Assembly (NCBI GenBank): GCA_963969365.1
Contig: OZ017756.1
Span: 1,054,001-1,118,000 of the forward strand
Origin: Asterochloris sp. CNOR1
Taxonomy: Eukaryota; Chlorophyta; Trebouxiophyceae; Trebouxiales; Trebouxiaceae
Length of the DNA: 64,000 nt
Direction of reading: 5' to 3'
Shown one piece after another: positions 17,601-38,190 of the stretch. How positions within the stretch are numbered: position 1 is the stretch's first letter; each line of letters begins with the position of its first letter. A program made the translations under genes and the position numbers. The notes beneath the pieces were generated by a model. That model was not told the origin of the DNA. It saw only the letters and a program-made list of their open reading frames with translations, and did not search any database.

Positions 17601-20600
17601 GCAGCATGCTTACCTTCAAAGGCCAGTGGGTTAGCCACCTCCTGCCTTTGACTGATGACGGGCTCCTTTGTGTCGCGACCTCTTGACCCACGGCATTGGC
17701 GCCACACCTCAGGCTTATATTGGTGCCACACCCCAGGCTTACGTTGGTGCCACACCTCAGGCTTACCTAGCCCTACAGAAACAGTGCAGTTTGATCAGCA
17801 CAGCTGCCAGCTTGTTTCAGAGCGTTAACACTCACCCGCTCCCCACAGTGCAGCAAAGGTCAGGCAACAAGGTCTCTGCTGCAACGTTCCAGCACGCTGA
17901 TGCTAGCCCTGCTCTCCATGCCGGACACTGCACACAGGGTGACAGATTGGCAAATGTTGGCCGGCAGAGGGCTCTGCTGCGGACCATGGTGTACTGCCGG
18001 TGGCACATTGTCCCCCCTGCCCCTGCAGAGACAGTGAAGATAGGCAACTCCTCCAGCAGCAACCCCAAGGCTCAGCTGCGGGGCATTGTGCAGCAGGCCC
18101 TGCAGGCGGTGCCTCCTGCCTTTCTGGAGGCCTCAGCGGGACACCCTAAGGGGTCGCCAGAGGCCATCGCAGCACAGGCGGGGGTCGAGGCCTTCACGGT
18201 GTCCGACACTGGCGCTCACTCCAACACGCGGCCGGTGCTGCTGTCCGGCAAAATGCAGCTGTTGGTGCAGGAGCTGCTGAGCCGCAAGGTCAGAGGGGTG
18301 CTGGTGCCAGGGCAGGCTTGTATCTGGAGATGCCCCTGCGACTGTGGAGCTCATGTGCACTGCAAATCGTTTGTTCAAGAGCTGCAGAGTCGCAAGTTCA
18401 GAGGGTGCTGGCGTCACGGCTGTGTGATGTCTGGAGATGCTGCTGTCCAGAACAGGTGCTGGGCTGGCTATGCTGCGGAACATTGATGAAGTGCCTGAAA
18501 ATGCTGCTGCTGGAGACGACAGCTATGTCTGCACTCAAGTGATTGCTGCGCAAGGTCTCGACATGCATTGAGCGACGACGGTCATTACGCTTCAGGGGTG
18601 CCATCTGCTGACAGTGGCCCTGGGCTTTATCTAGGCCAGCCTCACCTCAAACTCTTTGTTGGTTAGCACGGCTTCATCCACCCTGCTGTGACCAACTCAC
18701 TGCCAGCCCTTTCCTGGCATGCTCTGCAAGTGGCGTCAAGCCCTGCACTTGCCTGGCTGTGCCTGCCATCAACAGCCACCTTGATGAGCGCTCCCATGCC
18801 GGCTCAAGCGCGCAAGCACACCACCAGTCATGGCTCACACTGCCACGCTGCAACTGGTTTGCCCCTCTGACGGCCTCAACCTATAACGACTCCCATACCC
18901 CTGCAGGTGGCAGCTACCATGATGAGCAACTGGTCCAGCATCATCTTTGCCACGCGCAAGCTGACAGTGCTGGCGCTGAAGACGCTGCTGCAGAGCATGC
19001 CCAGCCTCAAGTTTCTGAAGGTGGACGGCCTTATGGGCTATGGGGGGCCGGTGGCTGCGGGCTCTGTCACGGGCAAGGTGGGACTCGGAGGCTTGCCTGA
19101 GTGCTGTTGCTTTATGGACTGCCAGTCCTGCAGGGACCCATTTGTCATGGGCAAGGTAAGACACAGTGCTTGGGCCTGACTTCACGCTGATTTCGTTGAA
19201 TCGATCTTGGAGAACGTGTCCTTTGACTGCCTTGTGGAGGAGAGCGCCAACTGTTGCGGGCGAGGTAAGACATCTGGGGGCATGGCATGCCGTCTCATTT
19301 TGTGGGCTGCCGGTGGTGGGCAGTTGATTGTAGGCCAGTCGCTGGCATTGCAAAGCTGCCTTTCATGGACTGCTGCAGACGGCTGCATGTGAACTCAAGG
19401 CTTTCTAGGTTCCCCTGCAGGCTGCATGGTAGATGTTTACATAATCATAGCGACATCCAGGCTCCCACTGCAAGGGCCGTGACTCCAATGCTGCATCCAC
19501 TGCAGGCGCACTGTAGCAACGTTTGATGGAGCACCAAATGTTACGAGTATGGCAGCATTGCCATTGAGATAAGTCTGCCAGCCCAGCTCAGAGCTCGTGG
19601 GCTCCTGTGGCAATCCCACCTGCAGGACATGCATCACTGATTCAGCCAGTGACAAGACGCAGCAAAGTCCAGCCTGCTCCATGGCACAAGCTGCTCAGAC
19701 TGCTGGTGTGAGAGGTTGCAGCAGTGCAGGCCAACATTGAGGTGGCCTGCACTGGTACCTGGCAGACTCGTGTGCTCTCACAAGTGTTATCTAGCTGAGC
19801 CCATTGGGAGGCTGATTTTCCCACTCTGAGTTTGATCCATGGACACAACCCAAGCCAGGGCAGCACCCATTGCATTGATGCACCGTGGGATGCTGCTATT
19901 GCATGAGGTTCTGTCCTGCACAAGGTTCATTGCAGGTGGACAAATGTCGGACTTCCTGAAAGGCCATGTGGAGAAGTTAGCCTGTGTTGGTGCCCTCAGC
20001 GTTGCTCAGCCGTTCCTGGCAACCTGCACTGCAGGAGTGAACTCATTGGCTTGGTGCAGGACACGACTGTTGGGCCTGGCCTGGCCTTCGCTCCGTCAGC
20101 AGCCGTTAAGCTGGCCTTGCGCTTTGCTGCAGAAGCCAACAGAGGAAACTTTGTGCCTGGGCTTTACAGTGAACTTCCAGCCGTTCCTGACCTGCTGCTC
20201 CCCAATGTCTACAGAAGCAGACCGACATGATTGCTAAGCTGCGGGCGGGGGAGCTCAATTGCCTGGTGTCCACAGCTGTGGCAGAGGAGGGGCTGGACAT
20301 CAAGCAGTGCCAGCTGGTGGCGCGTTTTGACCTGCCACATACCTCCCTTGCCTTTGTACAGTCCAGGTAAAGTGCAGTTGCCCTAATGCAATATGTGAGG
20401 TGTATACCAGAGATACATGGTGCAGCATTCCTGATTGCCCTGTGGAAGTCTGTCCTCTCATTCCTGGCCTGGATGCGGTCCAGGCTGAAGGGGGACGCCT
20501 TGCTCAGGATTGTGTGCTGCTTATGCCAGAGCTGCAGGGTCACAGGAGCATCTGCGACTGGCACTGCAGACCCCCCCCCTTTGTTGAGAAATTTCATGAC

Positions 20601-23600
20601 AGAGCATGGTCAACATCTGCACTCAGACTGCACCCTAGCCAGCTTCACCAGCCATGTGCTGCTGTCAAGCATTCAGACAAAAAGTCACAGTCAGCTGTAG
20701 TTTGACAGCTGTGAACCGATGTTCTTGCTGTCACAGCTTGTCCTGGCCCACCTGCAAGTTTTGTATGACAACAGGCAGCTAGTAGGCAGCTGACCTGCAA
20801 CGAGCATCTGTGGCCTACAACTGACCCCTCTTGCCCTGACTGCAGGGGACGTGCACGGGCTGTCAACTCGCACTACCTGGTTTTGGTTGAGAAGGGCAAT
20901 ATGGAGCACAGTGATATGCTCAATCAGGTCGCCAGGTGAGCACCCGTATGGACCGGTGCCCAAGCCTGGTGGTGCTTACTGAGCTGGGTTGTGATCATGC
21001 CAAGCAGAAGACCTCAGGTGATGCTGCTCCTTGGCATGTAGCTTGCACTGGTTCAAGAAGTCGGCAGCCCTGAGCAGCACTCCGAGATTGTGTGCAGCCA
21101 GAGGCCTTTCACCTGCTTGCGTGAAGTGGGCTTCTTGCCTGCTGAGACATGAGGCTGTTTCCAGATCAGTGCATCAGCACCAAGCAGCATCATTCAGGGT
21201 CAGCAGGTCTGCGGCCACAACCGGAACTGAGGCTGGCATGGATGACCGCACAATGCATGGGACCCTGCACACCTGAAGTCTCTTGTCCCCTGTTGCAGCT
21301 ATGAGGCCAAGATCCAGTTCCATGCTAAACAGCAGGCTGACATGAACCGCAGCCAGAATGGTGATGACGCCCTACAAGGCTTTGACAAGCAGCAGGCTGC
21401 GGTGTTGGCACCCGCTCGTGGGGTGCAGGAGTACTGTGTCCAGGCCACTGGGGCCAGTGTGAACTTGGACAGCTCCCGGCAGCTGCTCTTCATGTTCTGC
21501 CAGAAGCTGCCCTTTGACAGGTGAGCAGTGGACCCGAGTACCACGCGCAGTCGTCGGGCCTCCCAGGCCAGAATGGCGCCCAGGTACTGTCAATGCTGCG
21601 CAACATGCCCCAGCACACATCGGGCTCTGGCATGTCATGGGACAACATTCATCTGCAGCCAGAATAGTTGTGACTTGCTGCTCATGTCAAGCAGCAGACA
21701 TATTATAACTAGCCTGACCAGCCTGTCCCTGCTTTGATGGTGCCGTAGCGGCCGCACACCCTAGCCTGCAACTAGAGGGTCCAGACCCAAGTGTTGAGGT
21801 TCATGTTGCTGAGGCATGCATGCCACAACACATTTGCTTTGCTCAGCAGCAGTGCTGCCCTAAAGGTACACGATGCCAAGGCCCCGCTTCAGTACGCGCA
21901 GCATCCCTGGCACTGAGGACCGCTTCACAGGGGAGCCCCTGCTGGTGTCTGTGGCCGTGCTGCCCAACAACTGCCCTGTGCGCCTGGCCGTGGGGCTGCC
22001 CCAGCGCACTCGCTCCCTGGCAGTGGCTTCCGCTGCCCTGGAGGCCTGCGCCCTGCTGCACCAGGTGGGCTGCATGTCTCTGCTGCATGGGGTGCAATGC
22101 CTGCTGACAGGAGGCTTGCTGTGGGCCTGTTGCCATAGGGGCGCTTCCTGCCACGCAGAAAGCACCCACTTGCCTAACATGGACAGCAGGCCGCTGATGA
22201 TTGGCGTTCTAAGGGCCTGCCTGGGAGACTGGGGGCTCTCAAGGTATGGGTCTGATGCATCACACTGCAAGCCATCTGTGCCACCGGGCCTCTTGTAACA
22301 CCTGCTCCTTCTAGGCACGGCAGGCCAAGCTCTGTTCTGGCTCAGGCATGGCAGCATGCTGTTTGCTTGCCTGCTGACTGCAGGCAGGCACCCCGAGAAA
22401 TCATCTGCTGCCTCAAAAAAAGCAGAGCTGTCCACCCTGACCCCCAGGTCTGCCCGTGGTGGAGCTCGAGTATATGTCGGCCCAGATCTTGCCCCTGCAT
22501 GCAGACAGGGTCCTGCAGTGGAGGCACTGCTGGGCCCTGCCCGCTCGCGCCAGGCTCAACATGTCTAACATGTTGTGCCCTGCAGGCTGCCGCCCTGAGT
22601 GACCATCTGCCGCCCGTGGGAAGGTTGAGTCTAGGTCAACCTGACCCTTTGTGCCATGTTTGCAGGTGGGGTCCTGCGGTGGCCAGCCAGTTGCCTGCCC
22701 GGCAGCGGCCTTCCTCACTGCAGGGTTGGTGGCCTCAGAAGTCTAGGTTCTTTGATGCTGCCCGCAGGAGGGCCCCTGAGCCACCAGATGGTGCCCAGGG
22801 TGGAAGCTGAGTCTGAAGTAGCCTGACCCTGGACACCCTGCAGTTGTTGTCCTGAAGTGTCACGAAGACGCATGCCGGGCAGCGAGCCCCCTCATCATGG
22901 CGCTGGTGTGCTCCATCTGCTAAGCTACTCCAATGCTGCCTGCAGGCCGGCGCCCTGAGCGACCACTTGCTCCCCGAGGTGGACGCTGGGGATGAAGATG
23001 AGCTGGAGGATGACTTGGTGGTGGAGCAGGCCAAGCACCTCCTGCCTGTCTCTGCGCGGGCGCCCACGCTGCTGAGGCTGGACGAGAAGCTGGCCAGGCA
23101 CCTCAATGAGTGAGTGCCTGGGTGTGGAGGTGCTGCAGTGCTGTGACGGGCCAGGAGAGGCAGCAGTGCGTGGGCTGTTGGACGACTGGGCTCTGCACTG
23201 CGCCTGGCGGACGGTGCTGGGGTTACCAACAGTGCAGCCGCTCTGTATTGCTGCACGGCCGGCCATGTTTCAGCTTGACATGAGACTGGCAGGACTTGAC
23301 GAAGATTGAGTGGCTGGGCATGTTTAGCGCAAGGCTGCCGTAGTGCATGTGCACGAGCCAGCATCGCTGTGCTTGTCCCTGCTGCTGTCCTGCTCAGCGT
23401 GGCACTCAGATTGTGACTTGCCTCATTGTCTTCCAGCTTGGACTGCAGGCCAGAGGTGCAGTGTTCCTGTCCCTGCGTGAGTTATCTTGGGCGGCATTCC
23501 ATACCAAGCCCTGCTCCTGTGTGGCCCCTCTGCTGTGGGCTGGTGGTGTGCCTCAAGCGGCGCTCACCCCTGCAGTCATGGCAGATGCATCAGCAGGGTG

Positions 23601-26600
23601 CACTCAGCTAGAAGTGGACTTTCAGGCTTGTGTGCCCTAGAGCGCTACAGGCCTGTCATGCACTTGAGGCCGCATGGCTGCACAAGCGCCTGTGTCAGAA
23701 CCACCCCAGATGAAGGCCCAAACACAGCTGCCCTGGTGCCCTGCAGGCCGCTGAAGGCCCTCTGGGAGCCATTGTGCTGCCTGGGGAAGCAGTGTCAGCA
23801 GGGCAGCAGCCTCGCACAGCCTCCTCAACTCTCTACAACTGTGCTGCACCCCTGACCTGCAGGCTGGTCATGACCTCTACCTTGTATGCCATCTGACTTT
23901 TTAAGCCATGGTACAGCACCGGGAAAGCTATCTCAGCAGGACGGCAGCCCTCTGTGATCTGTCCAGCTGTGCATCTCTGCCCTCTGCAGGCCGGTGGTGC
24001 GCCTGCATCTGTACGCCATCGTGCTGACCCTTGCGGTCAAGATCCGCCGCAAGCGTGCTGTCGCGGGGGCAGCCCTGGCCTTTGGGCACGTCTTGACAGA
24101 TGAGGAGCAGGCGGCCCAGCAGGCAGGGGAGGTAGAGGAAATGGAGGTCGACACTGATGATGAGTGCCTGGCTGCTCTTACTAATGTAGCGGATGATGAT
24201 GGCATGATCCCAGGGTGAGCACTTGTGAGTGATCATTGGTGCAGGCAGAGGCCTCAGGGGAGGTGCGATGACCAATGTGAACAATGAGGAGTACACCCCT
24301 GGGTGATTGGGTTCTTGACCACAGAGGGAAAGTTTCACCAATGAAAGCCAGCTGCAGGGCAGAGGATGCGGTGCCTGGCAGCCCTTGTGTCTCGGCATGT
24401 GGCAGGCTAGGTGTCGTGTTGAGGTCAAAGTGGGGGGGCGGCCTGGCGTGCTGGGGAAAGGGAGTCCTGGCTGAGGTCGGCTGCTCATTGTGCTTGAGGA
24501 TCCCCAGGGTCCTGCCTGTGCAGTGACTACTCTGCAGTGCATTGCTGTTTCAATGTGACCGCTCTCCTTGCTGCTATGTGCTGGCCTTGAGCAAAAGGCG
24601 TACAGTGTGCTGCAAAGCTTGGCATGCAGCTGCTAAATACATCTCTCCATGTTGTCATGTGCAGGTTTGGTTGCGAGGCCCGAAATGTGCTGCAGCAGCA
24701 GTATGGCGTGCTGACCCTGCGAGAGCTGCCCCTGGGCATCATGGCCACTCAGCAGGAGCTGCACCTGCCCATCCCGTACAGCAATGACCAGGTGCAGGTG
24801 CAAGTGGAGGCGCGGGGCAGGGTGGAGGTCACTCAGGAGCAGCTGAAGCTCATGCAGGTGAGCTCTCGAACTTCTTACATCCATGAAGTGCTGAGTCAGC
24901 AAGGCAACACACAAGCAACTTGGTGACTGGATTGAATTGGATAGTAAGGTGCTCAGCACACAGACTGATGCTTGCAGCAGATTGGAGGCTGTTCAGACAG
25001 CTTGGACGGAAGACATGCAACTGTAACACTGCGTGCAGCCTGGTGTGTTGGCTCTGTACCTCAAACTTGCTGCTGTGGCATTACTGTGTGCTGCTGCTGC
25101 GTGCCATGAGCTCACTGATGCCAAATAGGTTGTGTTCTTTGATGCCCTGCTGTGGCTGCCTGCTGCAGCGCTACCACAAGGTTTTGCTGCTGAGTTGCTG
25201 TGGCTGCCTGCTGCAGCGCTACCACGAGGTCCTGCTGCTGACCCACCATAAGCACCAGGAGTGGGGTGAGGGCATGGCGGCTGCCCTGGACATGCCCCAC
25301 CAGCAGCACAAGGTCCTGGCGCAGATGGCAAAGGCTGAGAAGGCTCAGGTAGGCTCAGGCAGGCTCAGGCAGGGCTTGTCAGACCTGATTGAGCACAGAA
25401 GATAGGCCACGGTTTAATAAGGTGGGCTGTACAGGGTGAGCACCTCTTGAACATCGCCTTTCCTGTCCCCTTAGGGCCAAGCACAGATCCCGGAGCCAGC
25501 CGTTTCAGGCTGCACTGCTTAGGAAGGCACTCCATTCTTACCAGGGTAGAATGGAGGAGTGAGAGCATGAGCAGGTTCTTCTGGGGGTGTGCAAAAGAGG
25601 AAGCAAGAGGCTGCGCTTGATGTGGGCTGTTGAGGGCACCTTTTATTGTCGTTTTCATGCTCATGACGGACTCCACACTTGGGCTACGAGAGATGCCTGT
25701 TCTAAGCAGTGGCTAGGTAAGCTCAGGTCGGCACACAGCATACTAAGTGAGGCGCAGCCTTCCACAGACACTGCTTGACAGGCATGGAGCATCACAGCAT
25801 GGACCATCCCATGCCAGGGACTGCCGTCTGCACTGAGCATTGTTCGTCAGGTCTTTAGCAGCCCTGAGGGAGCTCAGTTGCATTGAGGATTTCCCTGCAG
25901 CACGAGGCGTGCAGAAGGCCAGGTCTGCTGGCTTGCAATCTAATTACTCTGGCTGCCTTGTATGTTGGCGCTGGCAGAAAGGGTCTTTATGTTGGCTAAA
26001 AAGAGAGGCTGTCCCGAGCCTGTGTGCTTGTAAGGACGCAGCTGGCCCATGGTAGCTGAGAACTCGTGTAGCCTGACAGTGGACTCAGCTGGCTTGAGCC
26101 CCACGAATACTGCGTTTGATAATAATCTGCAATGACTGCCACACATCTTCCTGTCTCCTTGCAGACTACCAGCGGCACTGACGCTGCAGCTGAGCCTACC
26201 AACGACCCTGTCGGCAGTGCCGCCAAGCAGGCTGACAACCCTCAGCAGCCACGCGAGCAGCCCAATGACTCAGGCTCCCAGCCCATGGACACAGCTGCCC
26301 CTGAGCAGGCTAAGCCTGCCACAGCACCACTGGCCCCTAAACCCAGGGTGACCAAGGAACTGCTGGTGAAGCCGCCAGAAAGCATGCTGAGTGAGGATCC
26401 CGGCTTGGCAGAAGACCTAAGGGTTCAGGCCCAGTGGGCCGCCAAGGCCCAGGGCAGCTGGTACATCATGGTGCCCCTCAACAAGGGAGGGCAGGAGCAG
26501 GCGCCCCCTGGCAGTCGTAGCAGCGAGGCCGCAGCTGACGTGCGGGAGGTGTCAGCCCCTGAGCTGCGCTCCAGCTTCTTCGCTTCTCTGGCCCCTGCCT

Positions 26601-29600
26601 TTGTGCCCAGGGTGGAGCTGCTGCCGCCAGACCTGCCCAGGCCAGACGAGGCTGGGGCCCGCAAGCTGGACTGGCAGGCCATCTGCCAGGCCAGCAAGGG
26701 CTTCCAGAAAGTGATAGGGGAGGCAGGGGAGGGCACTGTGCTCACTGAGACGGTGAGGCAGCCCCCTACCTTCAAACCCCGGCCGGGAGGGGTGGACTTT
26801 GACAGCCGTGAGGGCGCTCCTGCTGCTGCTGCTGCTACAAAAGGCACTGCTGAGGCAGCCACAGGGCAGCAGCAGCAGGGAGTCGCCAATGACACCTCTG
26901 ACAACGGCCAGCAGCCTCAAGGGCAGGAGGCTGCAGGCAGCACTAGGCCTGCTGCTGTCGCATCAGGCGGGCAGCAGCGGGGTACAGCTGATGGGCAGGC
27001 AACGCCGCAGCAGCAGCACCATGGACAGGCAGGCATGGCAGATGAGGAGCCCTTTGACCCTGAGCAGCAGCCCATCCCCAGTGTGGCTCTGGTAGTCACC
27101 ACCTACAACTGGGCACCCCATGACCTGATGTCAGTGCGGGATGACCTCACCCCTGCGTCTACTTTCCCTGGCGGGCAGCAGAGCATCAGGGAGGCAGCTG
27201 AGAAGGCCACCCTGTACGCAGGCAGCCTTAAGAAGAAGGAGCCCGAGCAGGCAGCTGCAGGGGAATCTGGGAGCACCATTGCTACCCCCCTGCGGGCTGC
27301 TGAGTGTGTGGCAGCAGCAGCTGCTGCCAAGCTGCCCTGTGCCCAGCAGGAGGCTGGGCAGCAGGGTGCCACAGGTGATGGTGCTCCTGGCACAGTCAGC
27401 AGCCTACCAGAGCACCCAGAAGGTCGCCAGCAGGGCAGCACTGGTGCTGTTGCTACTGGCAGTGGCAGTGGCCTCGGCAGTGCAGCAGCCGGCAGCCCGC
27501 CAGAGAGGGAGGAGGAGGACTTGTTTGCGGTGTGCAAGGGCTTGACTGGCTTGCCCGAGTGGCTTGGGCTGCAGTCGCCACTGCAGCAGAACAGTGGTGC
27601 TGTCACCAAGAGAGGGGGGTTGGTGCAGCCAGGTCAGCCTGCCCAGAGCTCAGGTGAGGAGGCAACAGGGCTTCATGCAGGCTCTGCCCCGCCTGTTGGG
27701 CAGGGCAAGGAGGCCGGCGCTGCAGCAGCTCCTGCTCATCAGGAGCCAAGCAGGGCAGGAGTAGGCACTGTGCCCCAGCCCGTCCCCAAGCAGGCAGCAG
27801 GGAGCAGTGCTGCGCCGAGCAAGGTGTTGACAGAGGCAGCTGCAAGGGCCCTTTCGACGGGCCAGATGTCTTGCGCCGGGCCTGCAGCAGCCAGCGGTGC
27901 TGCTGCTGCCGCAGCCCCCACAGCAACAGAACGCATTGCTGCAGAAGCATCAGCAGCAGCAGCCAAGCGCAGCGCAGCAACGGCAGAAGCCGGTGCACCC
28001 CCAACTTGGGAGGTCGCCTCCCCGAGCGGCAGCTCAGCATTGCTGCCCATCTCCCAGCAGATGCCGGCTGCCGCCAGGGTGGCCGTGGACCCCCACTTGC
28101 CGGTAGAGTTGTCTGCACAGGCCATGATCCAGGTCATGGAGCACTCAGCCAGAGCCCTGGCTGCACTCGTGCAGTCGCAGGACGGTCCAGACCCTGAAAG
28201 TGACTGGGATCCAGAGAATGGCCACGGCCAAGGTTGGGTCGACGACGCCGTGCAGCTGCCGGAGCAACAGGGGCCCAGAGTCCCAGGCAGCCCAGGTGAG
28301 GGCCTGCATTGGGCTGCAGCATCGGGGCGCGAGGGAGGTGCATATGGCCCAGGCAGCAGCAGCAGCCCCAGCCCCCGCACCCCTCCGCTGCCGTCCTGCA
28401 TGTCAGCCTCGGCCCGCAGTGTTCACCCCCAGCCCTGGCTGCTGGGGAGCGGCAGGCGGCCCCTGCTGGCCCTAGAGCCTGCTGGCGTGCCCAGCTGCCC
28501 TGCAGGGCACGGAGGGGGGACTCCTGCCATCTCGCAGGGCTGCCCTGTTGGATTGCAGCAGTCCCCCTCGGTGCCCTGCACCACACCTGGTGCCGATTTA
28601 GCCCAGTCTCAGGCCCCTCGTGACCACCACTCGTCTGGGGCTCAGCCAGCTGAGAATTCGGAATCCCTCGCCTCGCAGTTGGCCCTGATGCCTGTGACCG
28701 CTGACCCAGACAGCCCACACCCCTGCCTGAGCCCTCCTGGGTGGGCCGTAGCAGCTGAGGACGTTCTGCTCAAGACGTCAGATGACCACATGGATAAAGA
28801 AGCCATCAGGCCAGGCTGGGCAGACACGCCCAACACAGCCAGCCCACCACTGGGTAGCCCACCTGAGGATGCAGTGGTGCAGTGTGAGGATCCAATGGTG
28901 GGGGCTGCACGAGCACGCACATGCAGGCAGTGCTAGGCCGCGCCAGCTCCAGCCCCCGCATGCACATGCAGGTAGTCCTGCCTGCCATGCCTGCAGAGCC
29001 GGGCTGCGCTGCAGGCGCAGCGCAGAGCCCTGCTGCTGCCTGCCCTGCCACATCAGCTGCTGGAATGGCGCACCTGGCTGCAGGCACGCCCAGCGTGACT
29101 GAGGTGGGAGTCCTGCGGGGCGCCTCAGAAACCCCTGGCAGTTCAGGCAACAACCAGCTCGCCCCGGCCCCCCCGCCTCAGCCTCAGCCCCTGCCTCACC
29201 CCATCCCTGCTCCTGGTGCTGCTGCTGGTGCTGCTGCTGCTGCCTCAGAGGGGGCTGGGGTGCTTGAGAGCGGCTGCGGCAGGGCTGCTGCTGCTGCCAG
29301 CAGCCCCAGCCCAGGCAAACCTGCAAGCGCAGTTGGGGAAATCCAGGAGGAGCCAGGGCTGCCAACCACAGCTGGGACAGGGCTGGTCACCAGCCCCGCA
29401 GGCATGGCAGCTGCAGGCCCCTGGGCCATGGCGCCGGCCTCCTTCTCGGTGCTGCGTTGCAACACTTGTGACAGCCCGCCTGCCGCTGGTCCTGCAGCGA
29501 GGCCAGGTGCCCCCGCGATGGCAGAGCTTGCTGGGGACCTGGAGGCCACGACTGCTGAGGCGGCGGTGTGTAAGCAGGTGCTGCAGAATGGGGGCAAGCG

Positions 29601-32600
29601 CAGTGCAGAGGGCGGCGGGGAGCCCAAGGAGCGGCGTCGCAAGCGATGCAAGCGGGGAAACTCGCTCTGGTCCTTTGCACGCTACTACAGGTGAGCTTGT
29701 GTGGCTCTCGGTAGGGTGCTGGCTGCAAGGCTCACGGAGTGGATGATGGAACAGCAAAGGCTTGAGCAAGAAAGAGACCTCCTTATGGTCAGCTTACGCT
29801 ACCCCAGGTGAGCGTGGGCGTCCAGGCAATTGTGCGGGGGCAGGAAAGGGAGCAGATATTCCTACAGCTTTGATAGATGGGCAGCCCAGGCAGGGGATGC
29901 TCAGGCTGTGAAGGGGACAATGCGTTCACGGGCAAGGCCTTGCAGTGGTGCTGCATCATTGGGTGGCCATCTTGTGGGTGCTGGCTTATTGTTATCTGTG
30001 AGGGAAGTGGGCAAGACCTTCATTTGGGTGCGCTGTCACCCTGTGCATTGAGAGACATGTGTGGCAGGCAGCGGCGGGACAGGGAGATGTTGTTTGCTGA
30101 GATGCTTGACTCTGATTTCTAGTGGTTGCCTTGGGTGGGGCTCTTGGGCTGTGAGTGTTTGTCCTGCAGCTTGACATGGGCCACGCAGTCTGGCTTCAGC
30201 TGTTCCCTCCCGCATTACCTCCCCGCACAGTGCTGTGCTGGTGTGCAGTCCAGGTGCCAGTCTGTTGGGGTCTTGGCCTTGCGAGCTTGCCAGATGTACC
30301 TCAGCTCTGCTGTACCAGACACACACTGTCCTCACCATTGCTTCAGCCTGCCGTGTGCCAAGATTGACACTTAGGCAGCAGGCTCCAGACCAGCCGCTCC
30401 TTTTCCACCTGCCTCTGCACTTGCTGGGTGTGCCCTGCAGCGTGAGATGGGGCCTGGAGGGGCTGGTCATGAACCAGCCGCTGATTCAGGCTCGCCATGC
30501 GCAGCCTAGCCGGGAGAAGCCCAACCAAGGAGGTGAGGCTGCAGCAGTCTGCGTGTGCAGAGCCACACCAGCACAGCTGTCATTTCTACATGCGCACACC
30601 CTAGACCTTCACAGGACGCCGACAGCACCTGCAGGCCACTTGATGCCCCCAAGTTGCCGTGGCAGGCTCTGCCATGCAGCGTGGATGGATTGCCTGCTGC
30701 GCATGCCAGCCTGGCTGATCAGCCAGTGCTGAAAGGCCGGCCTGGCAGTGGTCCCGCTTGACCAACTTGTGCAGGCACTGACTCTAAGTTGCAGGCAGGT
30801 CAGGGATAGTTGTGTGGCTCAGGTCTCCACAGGCGTCTTGCTGCCCTGTATTGGGGACAGAACCGGCCAGCTCCATTCTGCAGGCCCCCTGAGCCTGACG
30901 CCACAGCTGTGCCTGACGTAGCAAGAAGGGTGCAAGCCTGAGTGCCCTGGCACTGACCCTACTCACTGTCCCCTGCAGGTCCCCTGATCCTGGTGCCGCA
31001 GCTGTGCCTGATGCACCCGCTGACCCAGTCAGGCTACCATGTGTCCAAGGTTCTGCCCCTGACCATGCACAAAATCCAGCAGCGCCTCCTGGGGGCAGAG
31101 CTTCGTGAGCAGCACCTGGCCAAGTGGTGGGCTTGAGCAGTATCCTGCATGACTGGCGTGTTGCAGCCTTCTCCCATGGTGTGGGGTCCTGACTAAGTCA
31201 GCCAGTGCAAGGGGGGGGACAACGCCCATGCTTTGATGTGCACCCCTCTGCTTCTGCACAAGCTCAGGCAGCTGCTTTCCCCTGCGAAGCCCTTGAAGGC
31301 TTCCTTGTGACCGGCTGCCCACCCACAACCTGGGAAACCTCACACACCTGTACACTCCGCAGGATCCTGGACAGCCTCATGAAAACTGCCTCCCCTGGAG
31401 CCTCTCAACCCTTGTGCCTCTGCTGCTCATGTCTATCCCCTGTCCTTGCGTGTGCATAACATGCGCAGTCATTTCTGCAGGAGGCATCCACCCCCTCGCC
31501 TGATGACTCCCTCCTGCTGACAGTGGACCTTGCAGGATCCCAGAGAAGCGTCTCACGCTGAGGATCTCAACCCCTCTGCAGTAGTGCCCACGTCCTTTGC
31601 CTTTGTCCTGCAGGATTCCGGATGGGCGCATCTTGCTGGAGGCCTTCACCCCCCGTGCCTGCCTGGAGCAGTACAGCTATGAGAGGCTGGAGCTGCTGGG
31701 CGACGCCTTCCTCAAGCTGGCCGCCAGCCTGCACCTGTTCCGGCGATTCCCCCGCGCACATGAAGGTGGGCATGGCCCGAGGCCAGATCCCTTGGGAGCA
31801 GCTCTGCTGTATTGACTCAGCTGCAGTCGGGCAGAATGTGGCTCTAGCGGGTCAGCGGCAAGACGTCACTTCTCCAGCGGCATGTTCTGACCACTCTCAT
31901 TGCCCTGCAGGCTGGCTCACTCAAGTCATCATCATGGCCCTCTTTGCCTTCCGTAGCATCTCTCATCTCCCGTTTGTGTCTGTGCCCTGCAGGCCAGCTC
32001 ACCTGCCACATGAGCTGAGTTCTCTCCATCCCTCGTTCCACACCCTGATAGATCGATTCTTGGTGTCTCCCTGCGTTGCCTGCAGGCCAGCTGACCAGCC
32101 GCAAGATCCGCATCATCTCCAATGCCAACCTGATCCGAGTGGCCAGCCAGCACGGCCTGACGGACTTCATGCTCAACGCCTTCAAGCGGGAGGCCTTTGC
32201 ATCCCCGGGGGTGGCCCCTGTGGCGCCTGGCCAGGTAGAGATGCTTACCTTGTGCATCAGGCATGGCTTGGCCCCAATGTGGCCAGTGTAACTGCTTGCC
32301 CAGGTAAGGCCTGTGAGGGGCCTGCATTGCAGGCCGGGCTGCCTGGCGCTTTTTGCGCCAGGCGAGGTAAAAATGTACCCAGTACATCAGGAATGCCCAT
32401 GCTATCTACCAGCCAAGCTGGGGCCTTGCATGTGGGAGGCCTGCTTTCTGGGCAGGGGTCACCTCCCATGGCACCTGTGCAGCTGCAGCTGCAGCGATGT
32501 ACCGTATACACCCTAAGCAGCCCATGATGTACAGTGCAGCCTGGCCTGGTGGTGCATTGTCTGCGTGCATTGCAAAGGGCATGTTGTGTTGCTGACAAGA

Positions 32601-35600
32601 AACAGCCTGTATGTGTCTTGCACCTGTGGCTTCTGGTCAGCTGCAGGCTAGCTTCTTATGCGACGAGCTACATATTGTCCACCGCATCAAGCAAGCAGCC
32701 TCCAGTTGCTGGTACCCTTTTGTAGGGCAGTGCTCTGCAGCCAGCATTGTAGAGACGATTTGCTTGACTGCTGGAGCCAACACCCTCAACGTGTCCCCGG
32801 CTCCCCTGCAGGGAACTGCCCTGAAGCCCAAGGCTGCAGCCGACATTGTGGAGGCAGTCATCGGGGCTGCACTCGTCTGCCCCAATCCCAAGTCCCCCAA
32901 TCAGCTGATGAACACAGAGTCAGCAGCCCAGCTGCTGGACGCGTTGGGGGTGCTGCCTGCCAGCCTGTCAGAGCATGACACTGTGACTGTTGGCAGCTGG
33001 CAGATGGGGGAGCCCACCGCTAAGGAGGATGAGAAGGCGCGGGATGATGCAGCTGAGGAGGCGCAGGCCAGTGGTGCGTCAGCCCTCTGGGCAGCATCCT
33101 GGGGCTGTGTGGGTGCTCAATCGCCAGGGATGTGGTTGCCCTGCTGTGCAGCCATCCTGAGGCTGTGTGGGCGCTCATTCGCCAGTGGCAAGTCAGCCCT
33201 CTTGGGGTGGGTACTGGGTTGCCAGGCCCTGGGTCAGACGCCCATCTTGCGCAACTGAATTGCGCTGCTGTGAGCATTAAAGCAGCAGGGGTCAACAAAC
33301 GTGAGGAGCTTTGTGGAGGGTTGCAATTGGTGATGGAAGGTCGATTCCTTGATGTGGCTCTGCATGCAGCAGCTTGGACATGGAGCAAGGCTGGCGCACC
33401 TTGCAGCACAACGCCTGCATGATGGCAGCATTACCTCATCACCGCAAGAACTCCGCCCGAGCACATGCATGTTCCTCAAGGTGACACACACCGCCTGCGC
33501 TGCAGCCCTGAGGACTCTGGCTGCCGCCTGCAAGGACTCACTGCATGCTTTGACCCCACCTCTGTGCATGGGCTGTGCTACAGGCGGCCAAAGATCACAC
33601 TTGGCTGCATGCACCTGCGCGGTCACCACGCATCGCATGCGCTGCAGACGCCGGAGACTTTGTCATCAGGCACTCACTGCCTTTGCCCCAGACACTGAAG
33701 ACACTGTCATCATGCATTGCCTGTGCTGCAGACACGGGAGACAATGGCTACTGCCTGGGGGTGGAGGCCATCCTCAACTACAAGTTTCGTGATAAGTCGC
33801 TGCTGCTGGAGGCTTTGACCCACACCTCCTGGCCCGATTCGTCTCAGCAGGTGCTGTCATGCACATATACATATGCTGGTGCTGACCCCTGGAGCCATAT
33901 CTGATGAGCTGATGTGTCTCAGCAGGTTCAGGGCAGGCATGCTCTGTCTTCATGCTGCTGCAGCGTGTTTGCTGCATCCCATCTGCATGTATGCTGTCCT
34001 GCATCTTTTGGCCCAAAGCACATTCCAGCAGCCAGTGCATGTAGCACATGTGGCTACAAGGGTCTGCCTTGTGCACAATGCAGTCCACCTGCCAGCTGAC
34101 TGCATCCTGCAGGGAGCAGGGAATGCATGGCAGGCTCCGCTTGCTGCACCTTCAACTCCGCACAAGGAGCGCCAAGTCGCCCCGTCAGGCTGTGCGGGCC
34201 TGCTGTGCTGCCAGCTTGTGGTGCAACATGTTGCCACTCATGCTGTTCCTTGATGGTGCGAGGTGCAGGCACTGTACTTCTGCCGGCATTCCCCAGAGCT
34301 CCAGGGTTTGCATACATGCCTCACACCGCTTGCAGTCTTCTCTGACGGATTCCCCAGCATGCACAGGTCTGCATCACTGTCCCATGCTGACTGCAGGGGT
34401 ACCAGCGGCTGGAGTTCCTGGGAGATGCTGTGCTGGACCTGTTGATGACCACCTACTTCTACCACACACACAAGTGAGCTGCGATCCTCCCGCATGTGGG
34501 TAGCCTGCTGGCAGAGAGCACTGGCCAAAGGTCACGAGCAGCGTCTCTATTCTCCTATCGGCTTCATCTGCTACAGCCTATGCTGGCTCAGCGTGATGGA
34601 GTGGCAAGTCTGCACTTACAGCTACAGCGCACAGCTGCCCAGCCTGCTGCCATGGAACTGCTGGGCTGCGCTCTCCAGTGATACCAAGGGCTGACACTCA
34701 GCTGTGTGCCACCATCAGCTTGCTCTGCCGTGTTGCCGTTCTCCTGGATGCATCTGTGTCCATCATGCTGCCACGGATGCCCATTCTGCACATGGCCATT
34801 GCTGCCTTGGGCTGGGCTTTGTAGATTCACTCATGCTGGCCTGCATCAGGGCGCCTGCTGCCCCGCCCCCAGTCTGACCCCCTGCCCATTCCTGCCCCGC
34901 AGGGGGTCGCCGCCTGGACAGCTGAGCGACCTACGGTCCGCCTCAGTCAACAACACGCGGCTGGCAACTGTGGCCGTGCTGCACAAGCTGCACACCTTTG
35001 TGCGACACCACTCCCCGCTGCTGTTCGCCGATATCAGCACCTTTGTGGCGGAGGTGCAGGCTGCGGTGGCTGCTGAGATGGCAGAGGACAGAGCTGACAC
35101 CCCTGGCCAGCACCCTGGCCAGCCAGGCAGTCCTGTCCCTGCTCCTGCCCCTACCCAGCAGCAGGCTGCTGTCAATAGCAGCCAGCAGAACGGGGGCCCC
35201 ACCCAGGACACGCACATGACCACAGCAGACGCCTTCCACACGACGACGACCTCTGCCATGGCGCTGGCGCTGTCAGACTCCCAGAGCTTGCCTGGGCACC
35301 AGGCCACCACCAGCCTGCCCCTGGACATCTCCATGGCTGCCGCTAGCCAGTGCCGCACTCAAAGTGCTGGTGAGCCTGCTGTTGAGCAAAGCCACTTGCA
35401 GGGTGTGCTTTGGGCCCAGGGAGACAGTCTGCACTCATTTTGGTACGTCAGTGCTGCTGTTAAGGAGACCAGCAGGGCAGGACTCCTGAAACTTGAATTT
35501 GTGAGCTGTTGGGCATTTATGTTGCTCGGCGTGCTCTGCACCACTGACCTCAATCGGCATGACAGGCTGCAGGCCTTGCAATGTGCCAGTGAGAGCCCAG

Positions 35601-38190
35601 CGGAAGTGGCACTGTCATTACACCTCCATGCTTGTGGCCGCTGGCACAAGGCTCAGCACAGTATCAATGTGTTGTTTCAGTGCTAACTGAACATTGACAA
35701 TGCATCTATTTTGACCTCTGTGGCAAGCTATCGACGTCCAGGCGGCCTCTGAGCAGGTACCCCTGCCCCTGCAGTGCCAGAGGATCCTGCAACACGTGAG
35801 GCAGCCAAGGCTGCCGCCCTGAGCTGGGCCAGCAAGCACACCTACAACACAATGGGGGTGGCTGTGCCCAAGGCCCTGGCCGATGTGGTGGAGGCGCTCA
35901 TTGGGGCAGTCTACTTGGACAGCAACTGCAATGACGATCGCACCTGGCAGGTCAGCTCAATTCCTGGTATGGCAGCGCTGAGGCTGCACTGCAGAGAGGA
36001 CCATGCCTGGCAGGTGAAGCATGGAGATGTTCAGCTGGCAACTCTGCCAACGCTTGGGGCACATGGTGGACTTGGCTGCCATGACAAGGTCAGTACTCCC
36101 CTGCACCAGGGACATTGTTTGCTGCTGGATCAACTGTGACATCCTGCTGGGATCTGCTTTGAGATCTGCCAGTGGCATCGGAGAAGGCCTTGCACTTGGT
36201 GGCATTGGTGGAAGGGATCGTCACGCTGGAGTCGATTGTCATTGTCCAGACTCTGCCTGACAGGGGACAGAACCTGCAATGCAGAGGGTGCATGCCTGGC
36301 AGGTGGGGCACGAACGCGTTGAGCTGGCAGCCTGGGTAAAGCTTCACAAAATGGCTGGGATTGACCTGCTTGGACAGCAAACATAACGACAATTCGCAAC
36401 TGGCAGAGGGGGCCCTTGGCAGATTGAGTGACGTGGTCAGGGGATTGGCTGTCTTGTCAGGCCGGTGTGGCAGCAGAGCAGCAAGCTCAGGGTGCATGCG
36501 CAGAAGTCGCTGCCAAGATGTGCAGTGTGGAGTCTGCAAGTTTGTCTCGATGCTTCTTTGCTCTCCTCTGCATGCCTGTGTCTCAGCAAATGCCGCTTTA
36601 CGCAATCACTGTGCTACAAATGCCGCTTTACGCAACCACTGTGCTGTCGCTTTTGCAGCTTTGTCTCATGGTTGGGCCGCTGCTTTCTTGCAGCATTGTC
36701 TGGCAGCACTGCAAGGAAAGCTGCAGCTGCGACACAAAGGCAAGTGACCTGGGCTGGCCATCAGGGCAGCACATCGCAGTGTGCCACGCTGCTGAGTGCT
36801 ACCTGTGACCCTGTGCAGGTGATCCTGCCACTGATGCAGCCCATGCTGGACCCAGAAACCGTGCCGGTGCACCCCGGGCGCGCCCTGCTGGAGCTGTGTC
36901 AGCAGCAGGGAAAGCAGCTCCGCTTCGCGGTCGCCTCGACCTTGCCTGATGCACTTCTGCTGGCAGCTCAGACCCTGGGGCTGCCTGAGGGCGAGGCCCC
37001 CTCTGCGGAGCTGGTGGCTCTGGCTGCTGAGGCTGCCACCAAAGTCAGCGTGGGCAGCCCTGCTGCTGAGGCAGGGACGGGGGCGGCTGCAGGTGCTGCT
37101 GGGTCGGCTGAGAAGGCTGGCGCTACAGCCCCGCTGGCTGCGGGTGGCAACGGTGCGCAGGCAGCCGCAAATGGCACGCAAATGGGCTGTGTACTGCGGA
37201 AGCTGTGCCTGCACGGGCCTAAGAGCTGTTCCTGGGGGCTGGTGTGCTGCTTCTGTTGGGTCAGCCAGTCACAGTCAAGGACTTACTCCTTGCATGAAGC
37301 GCTGGGGATCAGCTGTGCTGCACCTGACTGCATCGTACAGATTCTCATGACCACATCCAGCCACCCTCCACAGAGTGGTGATTCTGGCTTGACTACAAAC
37401 TGTTCGGATCTGTTTCTGCTGTGCCCAGTGCTGACAGCAAGCATGCTGCTGTGCAGGCATGGCTGGCAACAAGGAGGCTGAGAAGGCGCCGCTCCCAAAG
37501 CCAGTCCTGACGCCCCTGCAGCAGCACTTTCATGGGGAGAGGACTGCCTACATGGTGGCGCTGGTGGATGAGAAGCCAGCCAGCAGGTGGGCACTGTAGA
37601 ACCCGCGTCACCGCTGGCCTGGCATGTGCATGATTTTCTTGAGCCATTCACTTGTACCCTGGCGTATGGGGTGGCGGCTGTGGGTACACGAGTGTACACG
37701 ATGTTGGGCACGAAACGGTGACTTGATGGATCCTCCCCTGAATCGACCCTAATATGCTGGGTGTGCTGGATGAGAAGCCAGCAAACAACTGAGGAGACTG
37801 CTGGCTTTGTGGCCTGTGTGCGGTGCGCATCCACTTCTTGGTGGCCTGCTGGCTGGGAAGCAAGCCAGCAATGGGGAGCCTGGTGCAAACTGACTGCTGG
37901 CTGGCAGCTTGAGGCTGTTTGCACCTGGTTTCCAAGGTTGCTGCTTGTGTTCTGCATGTTGGGAGACTGCCTACCTGGTGCCTGAGGCTGCAGGCGCACA
38001 ATGCGCTTAGACCACTGTCTGCGCAGTATCACTTGTCTGGCCTGTGCTTGGTGTGCCATGTCCAGGTCGCTGACATTTTGCTGTGTGCTGCAGGGTGAAG
38101 CATGCCCCTAACAAGGCACTAGCCAAGCTCATGGCGGCGCAGGATGCAATGGAAAGAATGCTGGCGACAACTGCGTTTGTTCACGCTTGA
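11635..38190 (+). CDS. Dicer-like ribonuclease III (helicase, PAZ, two RNase III domains)
   Basis: A 26.5 kb gene with more than 25 exons. Exon 1 (11635-11730) gives MGSAGTAAKPG and QPRQYQQDLFEAARKRN. Exons 11807-11828 and 12138-12256 complete VIAYLDTGSGKTLVAVLLIK. Helicase motifs follow: DECH (13473-13580), GMTASPV (14046-14162), VSTAVAEEGLDI (20215-20366) and QSRGRARA (to 20935). Then come the dimerisation domain, a split PAZ, RNase IIIa (ERLELLGDAFLK, ADIVEA), RNase IIIb (QRLEFLGDAVLD, ADVVEA) and a dsRBD-like end. The acidic RNase III residues are present in both halves, so dicing activity is expected: cutting double-stranded RNA into small RNAs for silencing. The region 14772-18900 between the helicase lobes is only partly resolved. 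Total length is probably over 2,500 residues, against the usual 1,400-1,900, because of disordered inserts. Confidence 0.9.
11807..12256 (+). other. Dicer helicase motif I, split by an intron after a 22-nt micro-exon
   Basis: The 22-nt exon 11807-11828 (VIAYLDT plus one base) is joined to exon 12138-12256. The Walker A motif DTGSGKT is thus assembled across a 309-nt intron. Phases agree (22+119=141). The second exon ends with the Dicer-typical FLAPKVVLVQQ. Confidence 0.8.
12824..14162 (+). other. Dicer helicase N-lobe exons with DECH box
   Basis: Exon 12824-12994 encodes a run ending NDVWVMTPQVLLNILRHAF, exon 13473-13580 carries LLIFDECHRVTKKDP (motif II) and exon 14046-14162 carries VFGMTASPVN (motif III). 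All three lengths are multiples of three. These blocks match plant and animal Dicer helicases closely, and the catalytic D-E-C-H is intact. Confidence 0.87.
17695..17766 (+). repeat. 24-bp tandem repeat, three copies, inside the Dicer gene
   Basis: Three head-to-tail 24-bp units (17695, 17719, 17743) of the form ATTGGTGCCACACCTCAGGC followed by TTAC or TTAT, differing at a few bases. They can be read as GATPQAY-type octapeptides, but the flanking frames do not look like Dicer, so I place them in an intron. Confidence 0.8.
18907..20935 (+). other. Dicer helicase C-lobe exons
   Basis: Exon 18907-19077 encodes WSSIIFATRKLTVLALK and LKVDGLMGYGG, the region after motif IV. Exon 20215-20366 encodes DMIAKLRAGELNCLVSTAVA and EEGLDIKQCQLVARFDLP (motif V). 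Exon 20846-20935 adds GRARAVNSHYLVLVEKG (motif VI). The order and motifs match Dicer, so the ATPase core looks complete. Confidence 0.85.
21299..24857 (+). other. Dicer dimerisation (DUF283) and platform region
   Basis: Exons 21299-21520 (ATGASVNLDSSRQLL, FCQKLPFDR), 21866-22074 (YTMPRPRFSTRSIPG, SVAVLPNNCPVRLAVG), 22946-23109 (ALSDHLLPEVD), 24000-24214 (VRLHLYAIVLTLAVK) and 24665-24857 join in matching phases. The first blocks match the Dicer dimerisation domain that follows the helicase. The acidic stretch in exon 24000-24214 looks like a lineage-specific loop. The last exon is compatible with the platform segment before PAZ. Confidence 0.72.
22586..22985 (+). repeat. Duplicated exon start in the Dicer dimerisation region
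   Basis: The stretch beginning at 22586 (AAALSDHLPP) is a diverged copy, 360 bp upstream, of the exon start at 22946 (AGALSDHLLPE). Each is preceded by TGCAG. The downstream copy carries the better family match and the long open exon. Confidence 0.75.
25148..25243 (+). repeat. 48-bp direct duplication including a 3' splice site (Dicer)
   Basis: Two 48-bp units (25148-25195 and 25196-25243) match almost perfectly, each with TGCTGCAG followed by CGCTACCAC. Either acceptor (exon start 25169 or 25217) keeps the frame, because the period is 16 codons, so two protein forms differing by 16 residues are possible. Confidence 0.85.
26165..30532 (+). other. Dicer PAZ domain split by a long disordered insert
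   Basis: Exon 26165-28897 (911 codons) starts with connector sequence (SWYIMVPLNKG, KLDWQAICQASKGFQKVIGE). It then reaches the first PAZ half at about 27085-27180 (VALVVTTYNWAPHD, DDLTPASTFPG). From there to about 29655 the protein is Ala/Gln/Pro/Gly/Ser-rich for roughly 800 residues, crossing a 74-nt intron (28898-28971). The second PAZ half is made from the end of exon 28972-29690 and exon 30441-30532 (SFARYYSVRWGLEGLVMNQP, then LIQAR). In ordinary Dicers these two halves are nearly adjacent. The placement is my alignment from memory. Confidence 0.72.
30884..31017 (+). repeat. Copy of the PAZ/RNase III linker exon start
   Basis: The sequence from TGCAG at 30879 onward (CCCCCTGAGCCTGACGCCAC and AGCTGTGCCTGA) repeats the true exon start at 30979 (CCCCTGATCCTGGTGCCGC and AGCTGTGCCTGA), 95 bp downstream. 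The upstream copy soon meets a stop (TAG), so it looks like a decayed duplicate. Confidence 0.75.
30979..33073 (+). other. Dicer RNase IIIa domain
   Basis: Exon 30979-31126 encodes LILVPQLCLMHPL, the conserved link from PAZ to RNase III, then QRLLGAELREQHLAKW. Exon 31614-31765 carries YERLELLGDAFLKL. Exon 32086-32234 carries GQLTSRKIRIISNANLIR. Exon 32812-33073 carries ADIVEAVIGAALV, then an acidic tail. The Glu/Asp of LELLGD and the Asp/Glu of AD..EA are present, so the site should bind metal and cut. Confidence 0.86.
33732..35950 (+). other. Dicer RNase IIIb domain
   Basis: Exon 33732-33850 encodes AILNYKFRDKSLLLEALTHT. Exon 34397-34473 encodes YQRLEFLGDAVLDLL. Exon 34903-35369 encodes GQLSDLRSASVNN followed by a Gln/Pro/Thr-rich insert of about 90 residues. 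Exon 35775-35950 encodes ADVVEALIGAVYLDS. Phases agree throughout. The four acidic catalytic positions are intact, so both cleavage centres appear functional. Confidence 0.87.
36588..36647 (+). repeat. 30-bp tandem repeat, two copies, in a Dicer intron
   Basis: Two adjacent units with the core AAATGCCGCTTTACGCAA start at 36588 and 36618 and are nearly identical. They lie between the RNase IIIb exon ending at 35950 and the exon starting at 36819. No function is apparent. Confidence 0.8.
36819..38190 (+). other. Dicer C-terminal dsRBD-like region, apparently interrupted
   Basis: The exon starting at 36819 gives HPGRALLELCQQQGKQLRFA, like the first part of a dsRBD, then an Ala/Gly-rich stretch; I could not fix its 3' end. 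Exon 37457-37586 gives LTPLQQHFHGERTAYMVALV. The last exon 38094-38190 gives NKALAKLMAAQDAMERML and the TGA, resembling the final dsRBD helix. The domain is degenerate and the assignment is tentative. Confidence 0.5.

Follow-up and report, generated by a model that had tools for sequence, protein, structure and literature searches.

Exon-edge copies in the introns of an algal Dicer gene and other sampled genes, very probably left by small tandem duplications across splice sites

Why should the start of an exon recur, in diverged form, within the very intron that precedes it? The question is raised by a predicted Dicer gene in a 64,000-nucleotide stretch of the green alga Asterochloris sp. CNOR1 (GenBank assembly GCA_963969365.1, contig OZ017756.1, positions 1,054,001 to 1,118,000), hereafter the window, whose own numbering is used below. 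A sequence-only reading had listed ten copies of acceptor plus exon start ahead of seven Dicer exons. The best account of these and of many similar copies is very probably that ordinary small tandem duplications straddled splice sites, the extra copy joining the intron, lengthening it and then decaying.

The genome comprises 21 contigs with 56,383,464 bases. The main sample covered 264 kb in five places, namely the window and four 50-kb blocks from contigs C1-C4, and counts below refer to it unless stated otherwise. A further 30 kb of contig C7 was held out, with parameters frozen beforehand. Exons and introns were called by a purpose-written hidden-Markov model (HMM) gene finder, which was trained on the window and the four 50-kb samples and learned the donor consensus CAG/GTGAG and the acceptor consensus CTGCAG/G.

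Exon-start copies in the Dicer gene

The gene is modelled as follows:

11635-38190, + strand: Dicer gene, from the HMM model, with Pfam matches to DEAD, Helicase_C, Dicer_dimer and Ribonuclease_3 and an alignment to plant Dicer homolog 1 at E=2.4e-54; the model continues into a neighbouring gene, and its 3' end is uncertain.

Its identification as Dicer draws on Pfam searches with spliced protein pieces, which match a DEAD helicase, Helicase_C, a Dicer dimerisation domain and two RNase III stretches. The alignment to plant Dicer homolog 1 (7eld) spans the joins at 31614, 32086, 34397 and 34903, and it begins where exon 30979 starts and a few residues into exon 33732; the starts of exons 22946, 23990 and 25217 are predictions of the HMM model. 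All seven exon starts named by the sequence-only reading were placed by the model, the one given as 24000 being shifted to 23990.

Each named copy was scored by its gapless 36-bp identity to the exon start, taken at the best-matching position no more than 2 bp from the named site, and ranked among 1,830 intronic NGCAG sites; the resulting p values are uncorrected for the prior picking of the sites by an earlier reader. Eight of the ten copies are in register with the acceptor at p<0.005, and every one of the seven exons retains at least one good copy. The copy at 22586 reaches 26/36, where the best control reaches 19. Those at 25169 (24/36), 30884 (29/36), 31993 (26/36) and 31536 (21/36) are matched by no other of the 1,830 sites (p 0.0005 each), followed by 33692 (18/36, p 0.0011), 23863 (20/36, p 0.0016) and 33648 (17/36, p 0.0033). 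The remaining two, 31911 (16/36, p 0.020) and 31363 (15/36, p 0.031), are marginal. In a more stringent test with gaps, anchored on the acceptor, 22586, 25169, 30884 and 31993 lie at p<0.001 and 23863 at p=0.03, the other five having p of at least 0.08. Self-alignment of the locus at a score of at least 32 recovered five of the ten (22586, 25169, 30884, 31993 and 33648), together with a copy that had escaped the earlier list. The features on the acceptor side are:

22946-23109, + strand: exon with a start that forms the final unit of an array of three, spaced about 180 bp apart (HMM model, self-alignment, gapless test).
22579-22619, + strand: copy of the acceptor and start of exon 22946, offset 360 (score 42), above all controls in the gapless test; 22586-22615 is modelled as a small exon.
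22755-22818, + strand: second copy of the start of exon 22946, offset 178, absent from the earlier list (score 51; 25/36).
23863-23898, + strand: copy of the start of exon 23990, offset 127, beginning within the modelled exon 23747-23883; under the self-alignment threshold.
25148-25241, + strand: youngest case in Dicer, a 48-bp unit present twice across the acceptor of exon 25217 (93% matches in Tandem Repeats Finder, TRF; 46 bp at 93%, offset 48).
30878-30916, + strand: copy of the acceptor and start of exon 30979, offset 95 (score 53).
31536-31571, + strand: diverged copy of the start of exon 31614, offset 78 (gapped p=0.57; missed by self-alignment).
31986-32013, + strand: copy of the acceptor and start of exon 32086, offset 93 (score 36).
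33622-33658, + strand: copy across the acceptor of exon 33732, offset 84, in an array with 33692 (score 39).
15058-15119, + strand: copy of the start of exon 15162, offset 101 (score 38).

Several living exons thus close arrays. In that of exon 22946 the units are about 180 bp apart; the lags are 40, 44 and 84 bp in the array of exon 33732, and 82 and 93 bp in that of exon 32086. The gene finder itself called 22586-22615 a small exon, and copy 23863 falls in the called exon 23747-23883. The copies before exons 22946 and 23990 may be partly transcribed and spliced, and the two called stretches could be alternative or gained exons.

Other features of the gene were recorded in passing. A very long low-complexity stretch (26165-29690; two exons in the model, about 1,130 amino acids) lies between the Dicer dimerisation and RNase III domains. 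No Pfam family matched the 906 amino acids of the main low-complexity exon, nor did three long exons scanned singly in Pfam give a match. Short tandem repeats occur in Dicer introns at 17694-17766 (24 bp, three units, 87%) and 36587-36645 (30 bp, two units, 96%). Rfam gave no match at gathering level anywhere in the window.

Both exon edges, in all sampled places

In an edge test, each exon edge was compared with its own adjacent intron, with the edges of the remaining 318 introns serving as controls and a cut-off of p<=0.01. Of 319 introns, 19 matched the start of the exon that follows them and 35 the end of the exon that precedes them, against 3.2 expected; exon middles, taken as a control, gave 3 and 4 of 319. 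The Dicer gene is denser in exon-intron matches than the rest of the sample (14 in 38 introns against 61 in 436). The phenomenon framed by the sequence-only reading for Dicer acceptors is nevertheless confined neither to this gene nor to acceptors, and it recurs in other genes and in all five sampled places. The donor side is represented in the window by:

18369-18440, + strand: copy of the end of exon 18029-18288 and the intron start, offset 108 (score 62; alignment from -55 to +50 about the donor).
32344-32395, + strand: copy of the end of exon 32086-32234, offset 132 (score 34).
36366-36406, + strand: copy of the end of exon 35775-35950, offset 455 (score 33; p=0.0031).
37839-37870, + strand: copy of the end of exon 37457-37586, offset 286 (score 37).

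A second approach was independent of any gene model. Self-alignment for direct repeats at offsets of 20-600 bp, with a score of at least 32 and five distant-offset bands as background, found 156 diverged repeats against 4, 1, 1, 3 and 1 in those bands. At this score, 107 repeats were found per 100 offsets at 61-120 bp and at most 2 beyond 620 bp; offsets of 60-140 bp account for 77 of the 156. By class, 75 are exon-intron, 50 intron-intron, 23 exon-exon, 7 mixed and 1 intergenic, whereas about 52, 64, 21, 13 and 6, respectively, would be expected were these pairs placed at random. Exon-intron matches number 21, 9, 18, 17 and 10 in the five training blocks, and distinct edges with a copy in the adjacent intron number 35 of 443 donors and 29 of 445 acceptors. 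In the held-out 30 kb, 7 matches (4 exon-intron) compare with 1, 0, 0 and 0 in four distant bands. Within the sample, the phenomenon is therefore general and affects both edges, the donor side being at least as common as the acceptor side.

When 4,343 tiles of 60 bp were searched downstream at the same score, 101 matches were direct, 11 inverted and 0 from a reversed control. Direct copies thus outnumber inverted ones roughly nine to one, and local inverted copies also exceed the reversed-sequence control.

These counts bear on chance, that is, on whether a CAG-rich composition and a shared acceptor consensus could have produced the matches. CTGCAG is indeed frequent and common to acceptors, and single weak copies may be chance, two of the ten named copies being marginal in the gapless test and five not significant in the gapped one. 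The shuffled-intron comparison that the sequence-only reading had itself proposed gives a different picture for the whole. With introns shuffled by dinucleotide (mean of 10 shuffles), 1.7 exon-intron matches remain of the 75 real ones and 3.4 intron-intron matches of the 50. The distant-offset bands hold 1 to 4 repeats each. At a score of 32, the edges of other exons (up to 8 sampled, within 12 kb, same strand) match 0.3 times at starts against 14 for the exon's own edge, and 0.5 times at ends against 30; acceptor-anchored own matches of at least 21/36 number 13, with 0.15 expected. Chance is refuted in bulk, and as a general explanation we give it almost no credence.

Composition and probable origin of the copies

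The 75 exon-intron matches divide into 40 at donors and 35 at acceptors; all but two are in the adjacent intron (73), and 50 extend across the exon boundary. Fifteen boundary-crossing matches have at least 15 bp on each side, with an identity of 79% for the exonic and 78% for the intronic portion. The two portions being about equally similar, the DNA copied in these fifteen was genomic, splice site included. With no boundary filter, the copies carry GT in 15 of 22 and AG in 23 of 27 cases (18.1 expected for AG, a count biased by matches that end at the acceptor). These results speak against copying specific to exon edges, for instance from pieces of reverse-transcribed mRNA or by short, local, non-tandem copying of exon ends, a process to which one might otherwise turn, as many aligned segments (high-scoring segment pairs, HSPs) end a few bases beyond the splice site and are far shorter than the offset. 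An origin from mRNA is unsupported, since splice signals and intron sequence were copied too. The excess at edges can also be accounted for otherwise: the opportunity for straddling units (0.42) equals that for purely intronic ones (0.41), with 75 and 50 matches seen, and in simulation exon-containing copies remain visible for longer, so that no preference for exon edges is needed. Edge-specific copying is accordingly improbable.

Under the account by tandem duplication, the genome underwent many small head-to-tail duplications. Units within introns would have been free to survive, and units within exons would have survived almost only at lengths that are a multiple of three. A unit straddling a splice site would leave two edges in succession. 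Splicing presumably continued at the exon-side site, i.e. the last acceptor or the first donor, leaving the protein unchanged, and the other edge with its splice signal would be absorbed into a longer intron, there to decay, probably as neutral sequence. Repeated events would produce short arrays ending in a living exon, such as those of Dicer exons 22946, 32086 and 33732. Offsets are divisible by three in 21 of 23 exon-exon matches and in 28 of 75 exon-intron matches; the latter being largely out of frame, intronic copies are in general not retired coding repeats. Tandem or near-tandem repeats also lie within predicted minus-strand exons of the window, at 51288-51383, 53127-53348, 59055-59202 and 60273-60383, with offsets of 48, 66/132, 105 and 75 bp, all multiples of three.

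The youngest copies are those in which a tandem layout can be read most directly. Five HSPs are at least 40 bp long with at least 93% identity: two intron-intron, one exon-exon and two exon-intron. In four of them, length and offset agree within 2 bp (55/56, 44/45, 46/48 and 60/60); in the fifth (C2 18847), a unit of about 125 bp was read by eye. Beyond the HSPs, intron flanks are more alike than chance (p=0.003, n=67), with p=0.08 for exon-side flanks. Introns with a copy (91 of 473) are also longer, with a median of 432 against 247 bp. A strict search for young duplications returned 5 cases in 294 kb, in 4 of which the match extends past two units, so that the junctions are unreadable.

Could the duplications instead have created the introns? 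Tandem duplication of an exonic AGGT segment, with the duplicated unit becoming the intron, is a described route to new introns, and one case, as outlined in PMC4974935, spans an intron-exon boundary. Its signature would be an exon tail resembling the intron end and an intron start resembling the exon head, at a lag equal to the intron length. At 13/24 this was seen in 1 of 417 introns (1.6 expected) and 4 of 417 (1.7 expected), and at 15/24 in 0 and 1. There being no clear excess of the signature among the 417 introns, we consider this route highly unlikely here.

Nor do the copies form a family. A further match anywhere in the 264 kb was found for 7 of 75 copies (20-42 bp); the same threshold suffices for 49 of the 75 to recover their neighbour. 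The copies are locus-specific, and a dispersed family, including one resembling introners, is excluded for nearly all of them.

Several points weigh against tandem duplication as set out above. The exon and intron calls are de novo HMM predictions from sequence. The greater length of introns with a copy is partly due to detection opportunity. The median HSP of the 75 exon-intron matches covers only 0.33 of the offset, most copies being partial, and the tandem layout of the old copies is therefore one that we infer. Simulation shows how this can come about: intron parts diverge in both copies and fade first, leaving part of the unit visible. A simulated divergence D of 0.35 gives a ratio of 0.34, a value that lower divergence does not reach; yet no one simulated age fits lengths and identities together. 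When copies are read in the exon frame, stops number 6 against 13.6 +- 3.6 expected (776 codons), and the nonsynonymous to synonymous ratio is 2.12 against 2.80 expected. Young copies are also scarce: 4 of 41 exon-intron matches of at least 40 bp reach 85% identity, against about 49% in a steady-rate simulation (P=1e-7), a shortage that a steady process could not produce.

The coding counts raise the possibility that copies are functional decoys, alternative splice sites or mutually exclusive exons held by selection. Besides the shortfall of stops, the AG excess without boundary filter and the two copy-bearing stretches called as exons by the gene finder would fit such a role, as would AG retention where the boundary lies at least 12 bp inside the match (11 of 14, with 9.1 expected). 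At the same filter, however, GT is kept in 7 of 11 cases with 7.3 expected, nonsynonymous differences are as numerous as without constraint (308 against 309.3), and only the minority of offsets noted above is in frame. Exon G/C is paired with copy A/T 218 times against 113 for the reverse, counts that are not normalised for exon composition. Synonymous differences number 145 against 110.3 expected. Taken with the low stop count, this suggests that a few copies may be coding or alternative exons, or that synonymous change on the exon side contributes. There is little sign that copies are kept for a purpose, and selection on them is an unlikely general explanation. Of the processes that the sequence-only reading had put forward, local tandem duplication with intron growth is thus well supported and decoy acceptors find little support.

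Age, significance and relation to known systems

How old are the copies? The 41 exon-intron matches of at least 40 bp fall into identity bins of five, from 70 to 100%, as 6, 16, 15, 2, 2 and 0. At 85% or more, the corresponding counts are 5 of 22 for intron-intron matches and 15 of 77 for all classes together; at all lengths, 27 of 75 exon-intron matches reach this level, short matches needing near-identity to pass the score. Loss of copies cannot make young ones rarer than old, and the duplication rate therefore probably fell, unless the clock was irregular. The simulation behind this comparison has its own limits, in that simulated matches are too long (1,526 of 1,674 reach 40 bp, against 41 of 75 real ones) and the age that matches the lengths (D 0.35) yields too few high identities. 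We put forward, as a tentative suggestion that is rather less than probable, that a burst of short tandem duplication once passed through the genes of this lineage and has since largely ended. A copy is detected at 64 of 888 edges, and the lengths resemble simulated duplications so old that only about 12-28% remain detectable. Were the burst real, a large fraction of the exon edges may have undergone one or more duplications, and much of the intron sequence may consist of buried copies of such edges, giving intron size a datable, event-like history.

To our knowledge, intron lengthening without transposons is poorly documented. Exon edges act here as slow-evolving tags, since an edge copy in its own intron reveals a duplication after pure intron duplications have faded. 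Any genome can thus be tested for intron growth in a simple way, by comparing each exon edge with its own intron, and comparison with relatives could date the scarcity of young copies. The copies are also a warning for gene finders, as they carry realistic acceptors and donors and are sometimes called exons, as in the HMM model used here.

Small tandem duplications formed at DNA breaks or nicks are also the subject of work on paired nicks in plants and, reportedly, of a 2014 study of rice by Vaughn and Bennetzen. An earlier study, cited in the potato paper discussed below, is said to have found that within-gene duplication alters exon-intron structure; no clear signature of intron creation was seen here. 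In the human genome, small tandem duplications are the commonest short insertions and can form by fill-in at breaks, as outlined in PMC8355091. The copies described here resemble the duplications of that outline in being direct, locus-specific units of tens to about a hundred bases, and may have arisen by similar fill-in at breaks or nicks; they differ in being old, diverged fossils rather than new mutations, from which the route can no longer be read. With introner elements, as sketched in PMC9860276, they share the involvement of introns in many genes. Introners are, however, one element copied into many genes, whereas here each copy matches its own exon.

A further likeness is to the potato RdRp gene, for which a tandem duplication spanning an intron-exon boundary is described in outline by Ma, Lan and Niu (2016, PMC4974935). 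There too, the unit covers the acceptor and the exon start; in that case a new intron was gained within the duplication, whereas here the copy is absorbed by an existing intron, at many edges of both kinds. A genome-wide account of exon-edge copies in introns was absent from the literature searched, which comprised titles and the starts of abstracts, with most subscription journals outside the search. Duplication across an intron-exon boundary was already known from the potato gene; exon-edge copies in the introns of many genes are apparently new.

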